Source: a bacterium (lineage in GTDB: Bacteria > Desulfobacterota > Deferrisomatia > Deferrisomatales > Deferrisomataceae). From it: DNA of 64,000 nucleotides. The first letter of the stretch is position 1. Each line of letters begins with the position of its first letter. This document shows positions 1 through 60,706 of this stretch, piece by piece. Location of the stretch: contig JALUTY010000118.1 of assembly GCA_027021615.1 (NCBI GenBank), forward strand, positions 1 to 64,000. Reading direction: 5' to 3'. Under the pieces are notes generated by a model. It was not told the DNA's origin. It saw only the letters and a program-made list of their open reading frames with translations, and searched no databases. Made by a program: the position numbers and the translations under genes.

Positions 1-1501
1 CACCCTGTTCGCGGCCACCGACCCCTACGGTATCCGGCCCGTGGTGTACGCCGAGGTGCCGGAGGGGCTGGTGGTCGGGTCCCGCATCCGCCACGTGCTG
101 CTCCACCCCGACGTGGATCGCGCCCTTGATCCCGACGCGATCTACCAGTACCTCTTCTTCTCCGCGATCCCCTCGCCCCACACCGTCTACCGGGGCGTGC
201 GCAAGCTCGAGCCGGGCCACTGGATCCGCTGGACCCCCGACGGCGGGAAGGTGGGGCGGTACTACGACATTCGGTACCGGCCCGACCGCACCGTGGACGA
301 GGGGTACTGGCGGCGGGCCGTCCCCCTGGAGGTGCGGCGGGCCGTGGGCCGGTTCGTTCCGCTGTCCGACCCGGGTCGCACGGGCTGCTTCCTGTCGGGC
401 GGCACCGACTCGAGCTCGGTCGCGGGCTACTACACCCGGCTCGCCGGGCGGCCGGCCCGCACGTTCTCGATCGGGTTCGACGAGCCCGGCTACAACGAGC
501 TCGACTACGCCCACACCGCGGCCCGCCACTTTGGCACCGAGCAGCACGACGCGTTCGTGACCCCGGCCCAGGTGCTGGAGCTCCTGGAGCACCTGCCCTC
601 CGTGTACGACGAGCCGTTCGGGAACTCGTCGGTGATCCCCACCTACTACTGCGCCCGGTTCGCCCGGGAGCACGGGGTGGAGGTGCTGCTGGCCGGCGAC
701 GGCGGCGACGAGATCTTCGGCGGAAACGAGCGCTACGTCACGAACCTGGTGTTCGAGCGGTACCGCCGGATTCCCGGGCTCCTCCGGAAAGGCGCGATCG
801 AGCCCCTGGTCCGGGCGCTTCCCGGCCGGGGGGTGGTGTACAAGGCCCGGCGGTACATCCGGCGGGCCAACATCCCGAACCCCGATCGGTTCTACTCGTA
901 CAACCTGCTGTACGAAGAAGGGGCGGCCCGGGTGTTCCGGCCGGAGTTCCTGGGCCAGGTGGATCCGGAGGGCTTCCTGCGCCTGGCCCGGCGCCACTAT
1001 GCCGCGGCCGCCCCAGCCGACGACACCGACCGGCTGCTCTACCTGGACATGAAGTTCACCATCACCGACAACGACCTGCGCAAGGTCACCCAGATGACCG
1101 AGGCGGCCGGGGTGCGGGTGCGCTACCCGCTCCTGGACCGGGACCTGGTGGAGTTCACGGCCACCATCCCCCCGGAGCTCAAGGTCAAGCCCGGCCGGAA
1201 CCGTTACGTCTTCAAACGCGCCATGGAAGGGTTCCTCCCCCGGGAGATCATCGAGAAAACGAAGCACGGCTTCGGGCTGCCGGTGGGGCCCTGGTTCGCC
1301 CGCCACCCCCAGCTGAACGCCCTCGTCCGCGACACGCTCCTCACCCCCGGCGCGCGCATCCGCGACTGGATCCGCCCCGAGTTCCTCGAAGAACTCCATC
1401 AGGGCCTCTACGGCGACAGCTCCTCCTACGCCGGCGGCAACCTGTGGGTGTTCTTGGTGCTTGAATTGTGGCTCCGCCACGCGGGGACGGGTGGACGTTA
1501 G
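1..1501 (+). CDS. Asparagine synthase-like amidotransferase (5' end outside window)
   Basis: The frame is open from base 2, so the gene begins upstream and lacks its N-terminal nucleophile cysteine here. The first visible residues (FAATDPYGIRPV) match the end of the glutaminase domain. The synthetase domain follows, with a PP-loop SGGTDSS near base 398 and LLAGDGGDEIFGG near base 690. The family transfers glutamine amide nitrogen to an aspartate-type carboxyl or a sugar acid using ATP; in glycan loci it often amidates sugars. The last codons and TAG stop (1499-1501) lie inside an octamer array, so the native C-terminus may have been altered. It heads the exopolysaccharide locus. The family call is firm; the substrate is unknown. 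Confidence 0.9.
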   Translation, partial: TLFAATDPYGIRPVVYAEVPEGLVVGSRIRHVLLHPDVDRALDPDAIYQYLFFSAIPSPHTVYRGVRKLEPGHWIRWTPDGGKVGRYYDIRYRPDRTVDEGYWRRAVPLEVRRAVGRFVPLSDPGRTGCFLSGGTDSSSVAGYYTRLAGRPARTFSIGFDEPGYNELDYAHTAARHFGTEQHDAFVTPAQVLELLEHLPSVYDEPFGNSSVIPTYYCARFAREHGVEVLLAGDGGDEIFGGNERYVTNLVFERYRRIPGLLRKGAIEPLVRALPGRGVVYKARRYIRRANIPNPDRFYSYNLLYEEGAARVFRPEFLGQVDPEGFLRLARRHYAAAAPADDTDRLLYLDMKFTITDNDLRKVTQMTEAAGVRVRYPLLDRDLVEFTATIPPELKVKPGRNRYVFKRAMEGFLPREIIEKTKHGFGLPVGPWFARHPQLNALVRDTLLTPGARIRDWIRPEFLEELHQGLYGDSSSYAGGNLWVFLVLELWLRHAGTGGR

Positions 1502-1548
1502 GACGGGTGGACGGTAGGACGTTAGGACGGTGGGCTGGTGGGACGGGA
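1485..1548 (+). repeat. Octamer array, GGACGKTA family, 8 units
   Basis: Eight consecutive 8-nt units in one register, most beginning GGACG. The array contains the stop codon of the asparagine synthase-like gene and ends just before the S23-like ORF. The inverted form of the same word lies at 2014-2141, on the other side of that ORF. Confidence 0.85.
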
Positions 1549-1948
1549 GGGGGTGCCATGGGTAGCGACGATCGGTGGAAAAACCTCAGAGGTGTGGCAG
1601 ATGGCCGACGGGTTGGTGCTCCGGGTCTACCAGGCCACGAGGAGCTTCCCGCCGGAGGAAATCTACGGCCTCACCAGCCAGTTGCGTCGGGCGGCGCTGT
1701 CGGTGCCGACGAACATCGTGGAGGGATATGCCCGGGGCGGAACCAAAGAGTTGGTCCGGTTCCTGACGATCAGCTTGGGTTCGTTGGCGGAGACGAAGTA
1801 TCTGTTGTCGGTGGCCGAGCGACTGGGTTACGGCAGGGCGGAAGAACTTTCCGCCCTCGGCGCCCAGTACGACCGCCTGGGTCAGCGCCTCTGGAGGTTC
1901 TATGAATCGGTTCGGAAACGACCGCCCACCAAGCTCGTTAGCCGGTGA
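1538..1948 (+). CDS. S23/four-helix-bundle protein, N-terminus frameshifted
   Basis: This resembles the S23 (23S rRNA intervening-sequence protein, Avd-like) four-helix-bundle family; signature segments are YGLTSQLRRAALSVPTNIVEG and the closing LWRFYE. No function is assigned. The open frame begins at GTG 1538 inside the repeat array. The expected family N-terminus (MGSDDRWKNL, from ATG 1558) is in the next frame and joins the body if the single A at 1588 is removed. The similar ORF at 29725 begins MGEDRWRNLEV, which supports this reading. The gene is therefore probably frameshifted, or it uses a replacement start. It is bracketed by inverted octamer arrays. Confidence 0.75.
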   Translation: MGREGVPWVATIGGKTSEVWQMADGLVLRVYQATRSFPPEEIYGLTSQLRRAALSVPTNIVEGYARGGTKELVRFLTISLGSLAETKYLLSVAERLGYGRAEELSALGAQYDRLGQRLWRFYESVRKRPPTKLVSR

Positions 1949-2013
1949 GGGCGCGTGCGATGGGGGGAATGCGTTGCTGCCCGGTCTACGGCCGCCCCTG
2001 GGTTCCCCCTCCG

Positions 2014-2141
2014 CACGTCCACGCGTCCCAGCGTCCGAGCGGTTGTCCGTCCACGCGTCCTCACGTCCTAACGTCCGCACGGATGCCCGTCCGCACGGTA
2101 TCCCGTCCGCGCGTCCACGCGTCCTAACGTCCCAACGGATC
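2014..2141 (-). repeat. Octamer array, inverted GGACG family, 16 units
   Basis: Sixteen consecutive 8-nt units keep perfect register over 128 bp. Most fit NNCGTCCN, the reverse complement of the word at 1485-1548. It ends 9 bp before the GTG start of the next glycosyltransferase. It accounts for most of the 201-bp gap after the S23-like ORF. Confidence 0.85.
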
Positions 2142-2149
2142 AAAACGAA

Positions 2150-3409
2150 GTGAAAATCTTACACCTTCTTGACCACAGCCTGCCCATCTCCGACGGCTAT
2201 GCCATGCGAAGCCGCAAGGTCTTGGCGGCCGTGCGGGACGCGGGGTTCGAGCCGCTGGTGCTAACCTCCCCCAAGCACGAGCAGTACGTGCCGGGGCCGG
2301 TCCCGCCGGAAGACCGGATCGACGGGATCCGCCACGTGCGATCCGGAAAGGTCGGGGGGCGACTGCCCGTGGTCAAGGAGCGCGCCCTCATGGACCGGAT
2401 CCGGGCCCGGCTCGCCTCCCTCGTTCGGCAGGAAGGCGTGCGGCTGATCCATGCCCACAGCCCGGTGCTGAACGTTCTTCCCGCGCTTCGGGTGGCCCGG
2501 CAGAACCGGGTGCCGGTCGTGTACGAGATCCGGGCGTTCTGGGAGGACGCGGCCGTGGACCAGGGCACCCACCGGGAGTGGGGGCTGCGGTACCGGGTGA
2601 TCCGGGCCCTCGAGACCCGGGCCTGCCGCCGGGCCGACGCGGTGGTGACCATCTGCGAGGGCTTGCGGGAGGACCTCGTCGCCCGGGGCATTCCTGCGGA
2701 AAAGATCACCGTGGTGCCCAACGCCGTGGACCCCGACGAGCTCCGGCCCGTAGCCCGCGATCCGGCCCTGCGGGCACGCTGGGGCGTGGGGGAGGCCGAC
2801 TTCGTGGTCGGGTTTATCGGCTCGTTCTACCACTACGAGGGCCTCGACCTCCTCCTCCACGCCCTCGCCCGGCTGACAACTGCGGTGACGGGTGACGGGT
2901 CACGGGTGACGGGTGGCAAACGTCCCCACGTCCGCGCGGTGTTTATCGGCGGCGGCCAGGAGGACGAGCGGCTCCGCGCCCTGGCCCGGGACCTGGGTGT
3001 GGCCGACCGGGTGGTGTTCGCCGGCCGCATCCCCCACACCGAGGTGCCGGCCGCCTACGCGGCCTGCGACGCCCTGGTCTTGCCCCGCAAATCGATCCGG
3101 CTCACCGAGCTGGTGACCCCGCTCAAGCCCCTGGAGGCCATGGCCCTGAACACCCCGGTCATCGCGAGCGACGTGGGGGGGCACCGGGAGCTCGTACGGG
3201 ACGGCGAGACCGGCCTCCTTTTTCCGGCGGGGGACCCGAAAGCCCTGGCCGACCGGATCCTCGCCCTGGCCCGGGACCCGGACCGGGCGGCCCGTCTGGT
3301 GAAACAGGGCAAACGCTGGGTGCTCGCAGAACGCACCTGGCGCCGCAACGGCGAGATCTACCGGGGGGTGTATGGGAAAAGCTGGGAGGCTAGCCCCCAT
3401 GATTCATGA
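2150..3409 (+). CDS. GT4 glycosyltransferase, exosortase A system-associated type
   Basis: A 419-residue GT-B glycosyltransferase that transfers a sugar from a nucleotide-sugar donor onto the growing glycan, probably at the inner membrane. The N-terminus (MKILHLLDHSLPISDGYAMR) and the donor-site segment TPLKPLEAMALNTPVIAS strongly resemble the PEP-CTERM/exosortase A-associated family (TIGR04063 as I recall it). The start is GTG 2150. Residues around 243-257 (VTGDGSRVTGG) come from a heptamer array inserted in frame between HALARL and RAVFIGGG. The C-terminal residues and stop run into two octamers and an inverted repeat-B copy. The fold should tolerate the loop, but activity is untested. Confidence 0.88.
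   Translation: MKILHLLDHSLPISDGYAMRSRKVLAAVRDAGFEPLVLTSPKHEQYVPGPVPPEDRIDGIRHVRSGKVGGRLPVVKERALMDRIRARLASLVRQEGVRLIHAHSPVLNVLPALRVARQNRVPVVYEIRAFWEDAAVDQGTHREWGLRYRVIRALETRACRRADAVVTICEGLREDLVARGIPAEKITVVPNAVDPDELRPVARDPALRARWGVGEADFVVGFIGSFYHYEGLDLLLHALARLTTAVTGDGSRVTGGKRPHVRAVFIGGGQEDERLRALARDLGVADRVVFAGRIPHTEVPAAYAACDALVLPRKSIRLTELVTPLKPLEAMALNTPVIASDVGGHRELVRDGETGLLFPAGDPKALADRILALARDPDRAARLVKQGKRWVLAERTWRRNGEIYRGVYGKSWEASPHDS
2885..2916 (+). repeat. Heptamer array (GTGACGG) inside a glycosyltransferase gene
   Basis: Four 7-nt units plus a partial fifth, with one G-to-C change in the third. The array lies within the coding frame of the glycosyltransferase and encodes a loop rich in V, T, G and D that I would not expect in this family. 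Confidence 0.8.
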
Positions 3410-4098: not shown

Positions 4099-4482
4099 AT
4101 GCATCTCGATCGCACACACAAGAAATTGGACGCGCGGAAAGTGACCTTGGAGCTGTGCGAGGAGGTCTATGTCTTTTGCGAGCGTCTGCCGCCGGAAGAA
4201 CGCTACGGGTTGGGGAGCCAGATGCGGCGGGCGGCGGTTTCCGTCCCGAGCAACATCTCGGAGGGCGCCGCAAGGGGGACCACGAAGGAGCTCTGCCACT
4301 ACCTGACCGTGGCGCAGGCGTCCTTGGCGGGACTGGACACGTAGCTTGAGCTTTGCGCCGCGTACTTGGGTTTGGTGGACAGGAAAGGAGCCGAGACGGT
4401 CATTGAGAAAGCGGCGCGAGTCGGCCGAGTGGTCTCTCGCCGCACCGTTCACTTAAAAAAAAGATGTGAGGGTTCCCGATGA
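4099..4482 (+). pseudogene. S23/four-helix-bundle gene with nonsense codon
   Basis: From ATG 4099 the frame reads MHLDRTHKKLDARKV and contains the family core YGLGSQMRRAAVSVPSNISEG. It stops at TAG 4342-4344 after ASLAGLDT, where related proteins usually continue with a glutamine (CAG). Reading through, the same frame runs on as LELCAAYLGLV to TGA 4480-4482, with the expected total length. A single C-to-T change therefore appears to have truncated it. It lies between the putative sigma-54 promoter and the chain-length determinant gene. No function is assigned. Confidence 0.75.
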
Positions 4483-27683: not shown

Positions 27684-29696
27684 ATGTGCGGCATCGCAGG
27701 TCTGTTCCACCGCAACGGCTCGCCCGTTGATCCCGACGTGCTGGTCCGGATGACCCGGACCCTGACCCACCGGGGGCCGGACGAGGAGGGGTACTTCGTC
27801 AACGGGCGTCCGCCCGTTGACGCGCTGGGAGGCTTGGAGGCTGGGAAGCTAGGAAGCTCCAACCATTCACGGCTCACGATTCACGATTCACGAGCCCACG
27901 GCGCCCCGATCCGCGGCACCATTGCCGCGGGCCGCGGCGACGTGGGCTTGGGGCACCGGCGGCTATCCATCATCGATCTGTCCTCCGGGCAACAGCCCCT
28001 CTCCAACGAGGACGGCACGGTATGGGTGGCGTTCAACGGCGAGATCTATAACTTCCAGTCCTTGAAGAAGGAGCTGGAGGCCCGCGGCCACCGGTTCCGC
28101 ACCCACTCCGACACCGAGACCATCGTGCACGCCTGGGAGGAGTGGGGCGAGGGCGCGGTGCAGCGGTTCCGGGGGATGTTTGCGATCGCCCTGTGGGACG
28201 AGCGAAAGCAGGTGCTGTGGCTCGTCCGGGACCGGGTGGGCAAAAAGCCGCTGTACTACCTGGTGGACGACGAGCGGCTGGTGTTCGGCTCGGAGATCAA
28301 GGCGATCTTGGAGGCTCCGGGGGTGGACCGGGACGTGGACCTGACCGCGCTGTCGGACTACCTGTCGCTTCTGTACGTGCCCTCGCCCAAGAGCATCTTC
28401 CGGTCGATCCGAAAGCTCCCCCCGGCCCACTATGCGGTGGTCACGGCCGACGCGTTCGAGGTCCGCCGGTACTGGGACCTTGCGTTCACGCCGTGCCACG
28501 ACCTGCCCGAGGAGCGGATGATGGAGGAGCTCCTGGGCATCCTGGACGAGGCGACCCGGCTTCGGATGATCAGCGACGTGCCGTTGGGGGCGTTCCTGTC
28601 GGGAGGCGTGGACTCCTCGGCCGTGGTGGCCCTGATGGCCCGGGCATCCGACGGCCGGCCGGTGCTCACGAACTCCATCTCGTTCAGCGTGGCCCAGTAC
28701 AACGAGGCCGAGTACGCGCGGCGGGTGGCGGAGCTGTTTCGCACCGACCACCACGAGTTCCACGTGACCCCCGAGGCCATCCCGGTCATCGAGGAGCTGG
28801 CCTGGCACTACGACGAGCCGTTCGCGGACTCGTCGGCCGTGCCCACGTACTACGTGTCGCGCACCGCCCGGCAGAACGTCACGGTCTCCCTCTCCGGCGA
28901 CGGCGGGGACGAGAACTTCGCCGGGTACCGGCGCTACTACATGGACGCCCGGGAGAACCTGGTGCGCAACCTGGTGCCCCGGCCCCTGCGAAGACCCGTG
29001 TTCGGCGGCCTGGGGAGGCTCTACCCCAAGGCGGACTACCTGCCCCAGATCTTCCGGGGCAAGGCCTTCATCTCGAACGTGGCCCGCGACCCGGAGGACG
29101 CGTACTTCTTTTCGGTGAGCGCCTTTTACGAGGACGCGAAACGCGCGCTGCTCAAGCCAGAGGTGCTGGAGGCCCTGGGCGGGTACGAGACCCGGGACCT
29201 GTTCTACGAGGTCTACCGCCGGGCCCCGGCCGAGGATCATCTATCCAGGATCCAGTACCTGGACATTCAGACCTACCTGTGCGGCGACATCCTCACCAAG
29301 GTGGACCGGGCCAGCATGGCGGTCTCGCTGGAGGTGCGCTGCCCGATCCTGGACCACGAGTTCATGGAGTACGTGGCCCGGATCCCTTCGCGCCTGAAGC
29401 TCGTGGGGCTCGACGGAAAGCACATCTTCAAGAAGGCCCTCAAGCGCCACCTGCCCGATGACATCCTGTACCGAAAGAAGATGGGGTTCGGGGTGCCGAT
29501 CTTGGAGTGGCTGCGGGGCGAGCTCAAGGACTACGCCCGGGGCCTCATCCTGGACGGCGAGGCGAGCCGCCTGTACTTCCGCCCGGAACGGCTGGAGCGG
29601 ATCTGGAGGGAGCACCAGCAAGGTCTGCGAAACTACGCCACCGAGCTGTGGATTGTGATGATGCTCAACTTGTGGGCTAGGAAGCTGGGAGGCTAG
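27684..29696 (+). CDS. Exosortase A system-type amidotransferase (asparagine synthase family), with array insertion
   Basis: 670 residues. Nucleophile Cys2 is in MCGIAGLF; the glutaminase domain continues with HRGPDEEG, GHRRLSIIDL and VAFNGEIYN. The PP-loop SGGVDSS lies near residue 309, and SLSGDGGDENFAGY follows. The overall sequence resembles the amidotransferase of exosortase A loci (TIGR03108 as I recall). It would amidate a sugar or glycan carboxyl. Residues about 41-80 are an unexpected insertion between HRGPDEEGYF and LGHRRL, largely encoded by octamer and heptamer arrays (27825-27892). The frame is kept. The C-terminal KLGG and stop also come from an array. Confidence 0.9.
   Translation: MCGIAGLFHRNGSPVDPDVLVRMTRTLTHRGPDEEGYFVNGRPPVDALGGLEAGKLGSSNHSRLTIHDSRAHGAPIRGTIAAGRGDVGLGHRRLSIIDLSSGQQPLSNEDGTVWVAFNGEIYNFQSLKKELEARGHRFRTHSDTETIVHAWEEWGEGAVQRFRGMFAIALWDERKQVLWLVRDRVGKKPLYYLVDDERLVFGSEIKAILEAPGVDRDVDLTALSDYLSLLYVPSPKSIFRSIRKLPPAHYAVVTADAFEVRRYWDLAFTPCHDLPEERMMEELLGILDEATRLRMISDVPLGAFLSGGVDSSAVVALMARASDGRPVLTNSISFSVAQYNEAEYARRVAELFRTDHHEFHVTPEAIPVIEELAWHYDEPFADSSAVPTYYVSRTARQNVTVSLSGDGGDENFAGYRRYYMDARENLVRNLVPRPLRRPVFGGLGRLYPKADYLPQIFRGKAFISNVARDPEDAYFFSVSAFYEDAKRALLKPEVLEALGGYETRDLFYEVYRRAPAEDHLSRIQYLDIQTYLCGDILTKVDRASMAVSLEVRCPILDHEFMEYVARIPSRLKLVGLDGKHIFKKALKRHLPDDILYRKKMGFGVPILEWLRGELKDYARGLILDGEASRLYFRPERLERIWREHQQGLRNYATELWIVMMLNLWARKLGG
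27799..27892 (+). repeat. Hairpin plus octamer and heptamer arrays inside amidotransferase gene
   Basis: An 11-bp perfect stem (27799-27809 with 27812-27822, GTCAACGGGCG arm) is followed by five octamers of CTGGGAGG type (27825-27864) and four heptamers of ATTCACG type (27865-27892). Both word families thus occur side by side within a coding sequence. Confidence 0.8.
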
Positions 29697-29716
29697 GAGG
29701 CTGGGAAGCTGGGAGG
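29677..29716 (+). repeat. Octamer array CTRGGARG, 5 units
   Basis: Five perfect-register units in which only two positions vary (A/G). It contains the last codons and stop of the amidotransferase gene and ends 8 bp before the S23-like ORF. The inverted word occurs at 30235-30266 beyond that ORF. Confidence 0.88.
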
Positions 29717-29724
29717 TCAAGGCG

Positions 29725-30098
29725 ATGGGGGAGGACCGGTGGAGGAATCTGGAGGTCCGGTTTGCGGATGACTTCGCGGCCGAGGTGTACGAAGCGACCC
29801 GGGGGTTCCCCCGGGAGGAGATCTACGGCCTGACGGCACAGCTTCGGCGGGCCGTGCTTTCGGTCCCCACGAACCTCGTGGAAGGGTATTCCCGCAGGGC
29901 GACCGGGAACTGCGACATTTCGTGAACATCGCCTTGGGGTCTCTCGCCGAGGTCAAGTATCTGCTGCGTTTCGCCCGGAGGCTGGGGTACCTGCCGGAGG
30001 CGGCCCATGAGCCCCTGGCCGGCAAAGCCGAGACGCTCGGAAAGTGCCTCTGGCGCTTCTACAGAGCCATCGGAGGCCCCGATGGTGGGAAGGGGTAG
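29725..30098 (+). pseudogene. S23/four-helix-bundle gene with frameshift
   Basis: From ATG 29725 the frame reads MGEDRWRNLEV and YGLTAQLRRAVLSVPTNLVEG, then hits TGA at 29923 after an aberrant ATGNCDIS. Near 29900-29908 the frame shifts: the third frame continues ELRHFVNIALGSLAEVKYLL and ends CLWRFYRAIGG at TAG 30096-30098, giving the normal family length. One indel therefore disrupts the gene. It resembles the ORF at 1538 closely in its core. It is bracketed by inverted octamer arrays. Confidence 0.8.
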
Positions 30099-30114
30099 GG
30101 GATGAGACCGTACA

Positions 30115-31422
30115 ATGCGGTTGCGAAAGTTAGGCTCTAGAAGACCAGTGAACTCGACTCGGCAGAGCCAGAATGGCACGATGAGGACAGGACAAGGCGG
30201 CCCTGTATCCGCCGGCACGGGTTTCGCTTTCCAGCCTCCCAGCCTCCCAGCTTCCCAGCCTCCCAGCCAGCGCGTGCACGTCGTGCACGTGCTGTACTCT
30301 TTCGGTACCGGTGGCCTCGAAAAGGGCATCGCCACGGTGGTGCGGCACGGGTCGGAGGGGTTTCGTCACTCCATCGTGTGTCTCACCGTGTCCGGGGCGT
30401 CGGAGCGGTTGCTGCCCCCCGGAACCGACGTGGTGGAGCTGAAAAAACCCCCTGGAAATTCTCTCCGTAGCATCATCAAGTTGAGGCGGATTCTGAAGGA
30501 GCTCCGGCCCGACGTGGTCCACACGCGCAACTGGCCCGGCATGGACGGGATCATCGCGGCGCGGTTGGCCGGCATCCGCAACGTGGTGCACGGCGAGCAC
30601 GGGTGGGGCATGGACGACCCCGACGGTCGAAGCCCCAAGCGGATGCGCATCCGGCGCCTGCTGACCCGCTGGGTGCGCGAGTACACCTGCGTGTCGCGGG
30701 CCATTGAGCGCTGGCTCGCGGAGGAGATCCGGGTCCGCCGTCCGGTGACCCAGATCTACAACGGGGTGGACACGGACACGTTCCGGCCCGGCACCGGCGA
30801 GCCTGTCCGGGCGGAGCTGGGGATTCCTGGCGACGCGCTCGTGGTCGGGATCGTGGGCCGATTGGACCCCATCAAGGACCACCCCACCCTGTTCCAGGCC
30901 TTCGACCGGCTGCGGGACAAGGTGCCCGACGCCCGACTCCTCGTGGTGGGCGACGGCCCGGAGCGGGCTCGGCTTGAATCCCTCGCAGGGGAGGGGGTGA
31001 TCTTCCTGGGCGATCGGGCCGACGTGCCCGAGATCCTGCGGGCGCTGGACCTGTTCGTGCTTTCCTCCCGGAACGAGGGCGTCTCGAACACCATCCTCGA
31101 GGCCATGGCCACCGGACTGCCCGTGGTGGCCACCCGCGTCGGGGGGAACCCCGAACTGGTGAAGGACGGGCAGACCGGCACGCTGGTACCCACCGGCGAC
31201 CCCGTGGCCCTGGCGCAGGCCCTGGCGGCCTACGCGGCTTCGCCCCAACGTCGCGTTGCCGGGGGCGCGACCGGCCGGACCTGGGCCGTGGAGCGGTTCT
31301 CGATCGCGGCCATGGTGCAGGGCTACGAAACGGTGTGGTCACGGGCCGGGGGGAGGGGGTCCATTGGAGGGTTGCGAAGCAGCCGGGATGCTAAGGAGAG
31401 AACGTGGGGGAGGACGGCGTGA
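30115..31422 (+). CDS. GT4 sugar transferase, PEP-CTERM/EpsH-associated type
   Basis: 435 residues if ATG 30115 is used. The family body begins at RVHVVHVLYSFGTGGLEKG and has VVHGEHGWGMDD, IYNGVDTDTF and TILEAMATGLPVVATRVGG. It resembles the sugar transferase associated with EpsH/exosortase systems (TIGR03088 as I recall). About 53 N-terminal residues, including QPPSLPASQPPSQ from an octamer array (30235-30266), precede the family start. The array may have pushed the original start away; ATG 30181 or GTG 30274 are alternatives. It should add a sugar in the cytoplasm. Confidence 0.85.
   Translation: MRLRKLGSRRPVNSTRQSQNGTMRTGQGGPVSAGTGFAFQPPSLPASQPPSQRVHVVHVLYSFGTGGLEKGIATVVRHGSEGFRHSIVCLTVSGASERLLPPGTDVVELKKPPGNSLRSIIKLRRILKELRPDVVHTRNWPGMDGIIAARLAGIRNVVHGEHGWGMDDPDGRSPKRMRIRRLLTRWVREYTCVSRAIERWLAEEIRVRRPVTQIYNGVDTDTFRPGTGEPVRAELGIPGDALVVGIVGRLDPIKDHPTLFQAFDRLRDKVPDARLLVVGDGPERARLESLAGEGVIFLGDRADVPEILRALDLFVLSSRNEGVSNTILEAMATGLPVVATRVGGNPELVKDGQTGTLVPTGDPVALAQALAAYAASPQRRVAGGATGRTWAVERFSIAAMVQGYETVWSRAGGRGSIGGLRSSRDAKERTWGRTA
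30235..30266 (-). repeat. Octamer array CYTCCCAG, 4 units
   Basis: Four units of the reverse complement of the 29677-29716 word, in exact register. In the forward reading it encodes part of the N-terminal extension of the glycosyltransferase. Confidence 0.85.
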
Positions 31423-35078: not shown

Positions 35079-37278
<2,200 letters not shown>

Positions 37279-37393
37279 CGGGCCGAAGGCCCCAGACCGT
37301 CGACCAAAATTACTGGAAGGCCGGGAAGGACGATTCACGATTTCCGATTCACGGCAGTTGCGACCAACGACCGACGACGAACCACCAACGACC
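37279..37393 (-). repeat. GGCCTTCGGCCC hairpin and heptamer array
   Basis: The hairpin CGGGCCGAAGGCC at 37279-37291 joins the octamers before it to GACC-type words after it. Nine heptamers at 37331-37393 share one register: the first ones are CGATTCA-type and the later ones AACGACC-type. Together with the previous element this fills most of the 314-bp gap between ligA and the next gene. Confidence 0.75.

Positions 37394-58096: not shown

Positions 58097-60706
<2,610 letters not shown>

Follow-up and report, generated by a model that had tools for sequence, protein, structure and literature searches.

The intervening sequences (IVS) of 23S rRNA are located in an rRNA helix and carry an ORF in a loop, with inverted-repeat ends forming the stem; that of Coxiella burnetii, with its S23p ORF, is 428 nt long, and the mobility of IVS has been treated as a hypothesis (PMC4990558). 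In RAYT/REPIN systems (PMC2817692), a small gene lies between inverted copies of a dispersed repeat and the repeat tracks the lineage of the protein. RAYT is a tyrosine transposase of the IS200/IS605 type, REPs are single palindromes, and IS200/IS605 elements leave no larger target duplication. Bacterial MITEs are short inverted-repeat units with a target duplication, which contain no gene and share their ends with an autonomous insertion sequence (IS). Cyanobacterial STRR are intergenic heptamer repeats, i.e. degenerate 7-mers at gene junctions. Furthermore, TAACTGA intergenic heptamers were described in Beggiatoaceae and cyanobacteria, with horizontal spread suspected and no mechanism evident (PMC4679880).

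We analysed a stretch of 64,000 nucleotides from a bacterium of the family Deferrisomataceae, the whole of which is referred to as the window. At positions 1485-2143 it contains an S23 gene between two inverted octamer arrays (element 1), in the following arrangement:

41..1475, + strand: upstream host gene, asparagine-synthase-like (from the ORF list); its final codons enter the left array
1485..1548, + strand: left arm of element 1, eight octamers GGACGNTN
1538..1948, + strand: S23 / 23S_rRNA_IVP (PF05635, TIGR02436) four-helix-bundle gene of element 1 (from profile matches and predicted fold)
2016..2143, - strand: right arm of element 1, sixteen octamers of the reverse-complement word (CGTCCNNN), stopping just 5' of the next start codon
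2150..3409, + strand: downstream host glycosyltransferase; homology to congeners picks up again at about 2148

In the upstream flank, homology to G001 and G002 stops at about position 1471. The left arm (1485-1548) consists, in this order, of the units GGACGGGT GGACGTTA GGACGGGT GGACGGTA GGACGTTA GGACGGTG GGCTGGTG GGACGGGA, with the GGACG core in seven of the eight octamers. In the right arm (2016-2143), the reverse complement of this core, CGTCC, is present in 12 of 16 octamer steps, the other four being variants such as CGGTTGTC. Both arrays were called by Tandem Repeats Finder. The arm-to-arm match had a score of 20, versus a mean of 9.6 and a maximum of 16.5 after shuffling, and none of 2000 dinucleotide shuffles of the flanks reached this value. 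The gene matched PF05635 (8e-32; 111.4 bits versus a cut-off of 33.8) and TIGR02436 (4e-31; 107.4 versus a cut-off of 24), and its structural model (pLDDT 95.7) had 2gsc and 2rld as the best structure matches, followed by Avd. These data bear out the sequence-only reading of the locus, which had described eight GGACG-type octamers 5' and sixteen octamers of the reverse-complement type 3' of an S23-like four-helix-bundle ORF, both arms being one word in opposite orientation. The N-terminus of the homologues, MGxDxRWxxL, is found in another frame in element 1 (ATG at 1558), and the gene may either have a frameshift at about 1585-1590 or start at a GTG within the array region. Between the arms we found S23 only, and no recognisable transposase or recombinase as would be expected of an insertion sequence.

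Further elements and gene-less arrays were found in the window as follows:

29676..29714, + strand: left arm of element 2, word GGARGCTR
29764..30050, + strand: S23 gene of element 2, frameshifted over two frames
30231..30268, - strand: right arm of element 2, reverse complement of the left word
4120..4434, + strand: S23 gene of element 3, a remnant with an in-frame TAG and decayed arms
2884..2940, + strand: solo array of the 7-mer GGTGACG plus octamers, in frame within the glycosyltransferase
37182..37279, no strand assigned: gene-less pair of inverted octamer arrays (mini-element)
58097..58249, no strand assigned: cluster of solo arrays with the words CGTRAAT, GGTCGTT and GGARGCTR

Element 2 (29676-30268) repeats the anatomy of element 1 with a different word, being flanked by an asparagine-synthase-like gene (5') and a glycosyltransferase (3'), and its arm-to-arm match was not reached in any of 2000 shuffles. 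The third S23 gene of the window's genome, which was sampled in stretches, has the array-S23-array anatomy too, with its own word. None of the three S23 genes of the window looks intact. At the glycosyltransferase loop (window 2884-2940; L099-L102), in-frame arrays with differing words were present in G000, G001, G002 and G005, and there was none in G004. Altogether, 23 arrays of 7-9-mers were counted in the window, versus none in composition-matched shuffles. It should be added that a tandem pair of near-identical S23 genes (L039 and L005, G000:C101) has ATCCTTC arrays in both orientations in between.

The window elements share with the IVS of 23S rRNA the protein family, a similar size and the terminal inverted repeats around the ORF. 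They differ in location, element 1 residing between asnB-like and glycosyltransferase (GT) genes, and in arms that are tandem arrays of 7-9-nt words, with empty sites and gene-less relatives. For 20 S23 loci of other phyla, no rRNA match was obtained. It may be that the IVS belong to this class as its members residing in rRNA.

Both 2gsc and 2rld were deposited with five chains, and on this structural similarity the S23 protein is probably pentameric. The Avd structures (4dwl, 8ub7) aligned to the S23 model with TM of about 0.75-0.79; Avd of diversity-generating retroelements (DGRs) thus has the same fold, whereas a DGR was excluded, as no reverse transcriptase (PF00078) was matched in G000 or G002. 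This absence, and the fact that reverse transcriptases and S23 showed no obvious association in a set of 59 genomes, also led us to reject a reverse transcriptase acting in trans as a general requirement. Two S23-like genes do adjoin reverse transcriptases (G057:C134:2099-3155 and G041:C1:2047707-2048900) and are probably Avd of DGRs. No catalytic domain was found among Pfam/NCBIfam or fold matches of S23, and we know of no catalytic motif in this protein. Between element copies, S23 dN/dS was 0.08-0.17 in nine of ten intact pairs and 0.27 in the youngest one, versus 0.64 for the decayed gene of element 2. The low values imply that the protein is selected while the element moves, as expected of a mobility protein. 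By analogy with RAYT for REPINs, and in spite of an unrelated fold, S23 is most likely the mobility or recognition protein of the unit; we infer that it directs the event, having recognised either the word or the hairpin formed by the arms.

To survey the anatomy across bacteria, S23 loci were sampled from the phylum (72) and from a scan of GTDB species (80). The 5' flank matched the reverse complement of the 3' flank above the control threshold in 62 of 71 scorable phylum loci and in 61 of 77 across bacteria, in agreement with the expectation of the sequence-only reading that other S23-like genes would be flanked by inverted arrays; the opposite outcome, S23-like genes with no association with arrays, did not occur. 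Word-matched inverted arms (score of at least 15) were found around 75% of 144 S23 genes from more than 25 phyla, versus 9% of 261 other genes at the same loci (Mann-Whitney p 2e-40 for the arm scores), and about a quarter of the S23 genes were without clear arms. High-scoring genes among the controls were mostly further S23 genes, neighbours of an element sharing its arm, or GxxExxY genes, with few unexplained. Chance or composition as the source of the arms was ruled out by the shuffles and by these controls. The arm arrays comprised 79 of 7-mers, 31 of 8-mers and 8 of 9-mers, with about 4.6 copies each, and the period was equal in both arms in 77 of 82 cases. Left arms are G-rich, often AGGAG-like just 5' of the S23 start (e.g. 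L185), and the array may double as a ribosome-binding site. The elements insert at gene junctions, mostly within operons and in transcriptional orientation, in many cases immediately at a stop or start codon: between same-strand neighbours, S23 was co-directional in 95 of 103 cases (95:8, with a crude ORF caller), as would suit a unit dependent on transcription by the host or on an RNA step. One element with GGTGACA arrays (L188, Anabaena sp. 90 pANA02) is located within a type I-D CRISPR-Cas operon, in the cas6/cas4 gap. As for carriers, there were no matches to S23 elements in 50,697 phage records, and near-identical DNA on plasmids amounted to just one 48-bp match.

In the window's genus and its relatives, the same junctions have different occupants. 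The phbB|ech junction, with flanks 96-98% identical, is occupied in G000 by an S23 element with the word CGGTCNN, whereas G001 and G002 have two inverted octamer arrays without a gene there; other array pairs are found in more distant genomes, and G008 is bare, with no array. The gspE|deacetylase junction of G002 carries S23, that of G000 and G001 solo arrays. At asnB|GT, each of three congeners has a different unit, those of the two congeners of the window's genome differing from element 1 in word; as the sequence-only reading had proposed to look for, this junction also occurs without an S23 gene, in the related genome G004. The S23 of G001 at this junction belongs to the clade of element 1 and that of G002 to a different clade; element 1 and its counterpart in G001 could go back to a single old insertion whose words have since diverged. 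The junction of element 2 is occupied in G002 by a GxxExxY gene (G002:C1:1118195-1118530).

The unit could be regarded as a host-useful RNA device, in which the arms form a long hairpin in polycistronic mRNA that S23 binds, the unit being retained because it serves in processing the mRNA or in expressing its genes differentially, comparable to the RNase III-processed IVS. The arms do pair in the predicted RNA fold (element 1, -340 kcal/mol, z -5.1; element 2, z -4.0), and both the co-directional placement and the purifying selection on S23 would suit such a device. We nevertheless consider it quite improbable, as junction occupants are swapped between species at 96-98% flank identity, relatives do without the unit (G008 and the cyanobacterial empty sites described below), all three window genes look damaged, and co-directionality can also arise where a host promoter is required or antisense is avoided.

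Full and empty sites were best resolved on plasmids of Nostocales, where a 428-bp array-S23-array is present in Trichormus and Scytonema and absent from plasmids with approximately 97.6% identical flanks. At the clean site, the empty sequence is AAAAAGTAATTAACAAATAAATATG and in the full one GTAAT is repeated on both sides, an exact 5-bp target duplication with nothing else beyond the arrays. It should be noted that the exact duplication was read at one site only, and that empty sites with clean duplications come from cyanobacterial elements rather than from those of the window; a second candidate, TTCTA, requires one indel, the insertions L189 and L202 showed no clean target duplication, and the remaining cyanobacterial full/empty sites were too diverged or unclear to read one. 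Two full copies (L185 and L192) differ by an exact 14-bp indel, equal to two 7-mers of one arm. Moreover, one element family occurs at unrelated junctions in Nostoc, Trichormus and Aulosira, with homology running from array to array only. Near-identical copies on Calothrix plasmids (L183/L184) were discarded as end markers, since they were duplicated along with several kb of flank. Separately, the element L187 of Nostoc edaphicum pNe_5 lies antisense between ribonucleotide reductase subunit genes, at a junction that is empty in a relative.

Could the arrays have been there beforehand, as slippage repeats or recombination landing pads at junctions between which S23 settled by chance? Repeats of 7-mers are common in many genomes (PMC4679880), and junctions with solo arrays in one species carry S23 in another. 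We give this very little credence: the empty sites L191, L200 and G008 have no array whatever, the words are specific to the element and the same in both of its arms, and other genes have no arms. In terms of genome comparison, the array-S23-array unit is mobile, given the full and empty sites and the junctions re-occupied at 96-98% flank identity. The sequence-only proposal of one transposable unit is therefore supported by the empty sites and by the association of S23 with arrays, S23 as its mover being what we infer.

The unit might still be a MITE-like passenger moved in trans by ordinary IS transposases, with S23 serving either the host or the element. In G049, two copies 94% identical (C23 and C33; L061, L063) have a 22-bp inverted repeat, GGTTCWTCTCCCAA...AGTTGG, outside the arrays and 8-bp duplications, AAATTAAT and ATATTTTT; from these IS-like ends and duplications it follows that these two copies, at least, were moved by a transposase acting in trans. 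The lack of a catalytic domain among S23 matches points in the same direction. As a general explanation, however, it appears unlikely, because end words differ in almost every element and are too varied for one transposase, the clean cyanobacterial site consists of arrays and the 5-bp duplication with no further sequence, and the related copies G021 C47 and C72 match from array to array only.

The word is identical within an element and different between elements, a regularity invisible to the sequence-only reading, and the words follow the S23 tree. GG[ACG][ACG]G[CGT]TN is the word of the clade holding elements 1 and 2, CGTRAAT is that of element 3 and its relatives, reaching another family, and further clades have GTKCCRN, GGATTCAA and CGTTCNG. 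Across genomes, word and protein similarity were correlated with a Mantel rho of 0.115, versus a maximum of 0.093 in 500 permutations, the overall correlation being small since words no longer resemble each other once the proteins are moderately distant; words matched in 16% of comparisons at high S23 protein similarity versus 0.5% at low. The period was the same as that of the nearest S23 relative in another genome in 84 of 118 cases, versus 61 expected. A genome-wide word preference was ruled out, since none of 57 unrelated S23 pairs within one genome shared a word. Rather than recognition, the co-variation of word and S23 could in part be a consequence of whole elements descending from a common ancestor. 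Gene-less arrays extend the pattern: in four hosts, 28 of 44 solo arrays matched the S23 words of their own host, versus one of 44 for equal-sized word sets of other hosts (p 7e-11). The density of arrays was 2.6 per 20 kb in S23-containing versus 0.2 in S23-free stretches (ten stretches each, p 0.006), a figure that is indicative, coming from few genomes.

We therefore favour, with a probability of about 70%, a minimal mobile element composed of inverted arrays of one degenerate 7-9-nt word, with S23 as the sole gene and movement directed by S23. The protein would bind either the repeated word or the hairpin into which the arms fold as RNA or single-stranded DNA. In this way it would direct how its own unit is copied or inserted, and would do the same in trans for array pairs that lack a gene. 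Breaking and joining would be accomplished by S23 or by an enzyme recruited from the host, and insertion would duplicate a short piece of the target (5 bp at the clean site). Afterwards, the arrays would lengthen or shorten by slippage and the gene would decay.

This minimal S23 element resembles RAYT/REPIN in that the gene is flanked by an inverted pair of a dispersed repeat. It differs in the protein, S23 being a four-helix bundle and not a Y1 transposase, in the tandem word arrays that replace single palindromes, and in the 5-bp duplication at the clean site. The class works like RAYT/REPIN and is not a member of it. Gene-less array pairs look MITE-like, and GTAAT at one clean site is a target duplication of the MITE kind, but S23 units have neither a fixed terminal sequence nor a recognised parent transposase; they carry a conserved gene under purifying selection and element-specific end words. 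By their description as degenerate direct repeats at gene junctions, the TAACTGA heptamers can be set beside S23 arrays, although no link to S23 or to inverted pairs was made there (PMC4679880). GxxExxY genes (PF13366, PDDEXK_3) also have inverted short-word arrays at their flanks, with words of about 8-10 nt, whereas the protein is unrelated and, by its family name, of nuclease fold; such arrays were seen at L243 and L249-L278, of the types ACGCAGATT, CACAGAGG and CGCAAAGG. In the open-access literature, we found nothing linking S23 or four-helix-bundle genes to repeat arrays apart from the IVS papers, and no prior description of S23 elements bounded by inverted word arrays.

A wider reading, to which we assign slightly less than an even chance, would make S23 the mobility protein of an overlooked class of transposable elements in most bacterial phyla. 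Each subunit of its pentameric bundle would read one copy of the tandem word, and the protein would move the unit and its gene-less copies without a known transposase; IVS and many of the intergenic heptamer arrays would be kindred, as would GxxExxY genes with their different protein, and Avd of DGRs would be a domesticated relative. S23 and four-helix-bundle genes are annotated across bacterial phyla without a function. The origins of the 23S rRNA IVS and of intergenic 7-mer repeats, open for decades, would now become parts of one mobile element. The protein-word code is testable, as S23 binding and movement are predicted to follow the word, and if S23 alone suffices for movement, it would represent a new kind of mobility protein.
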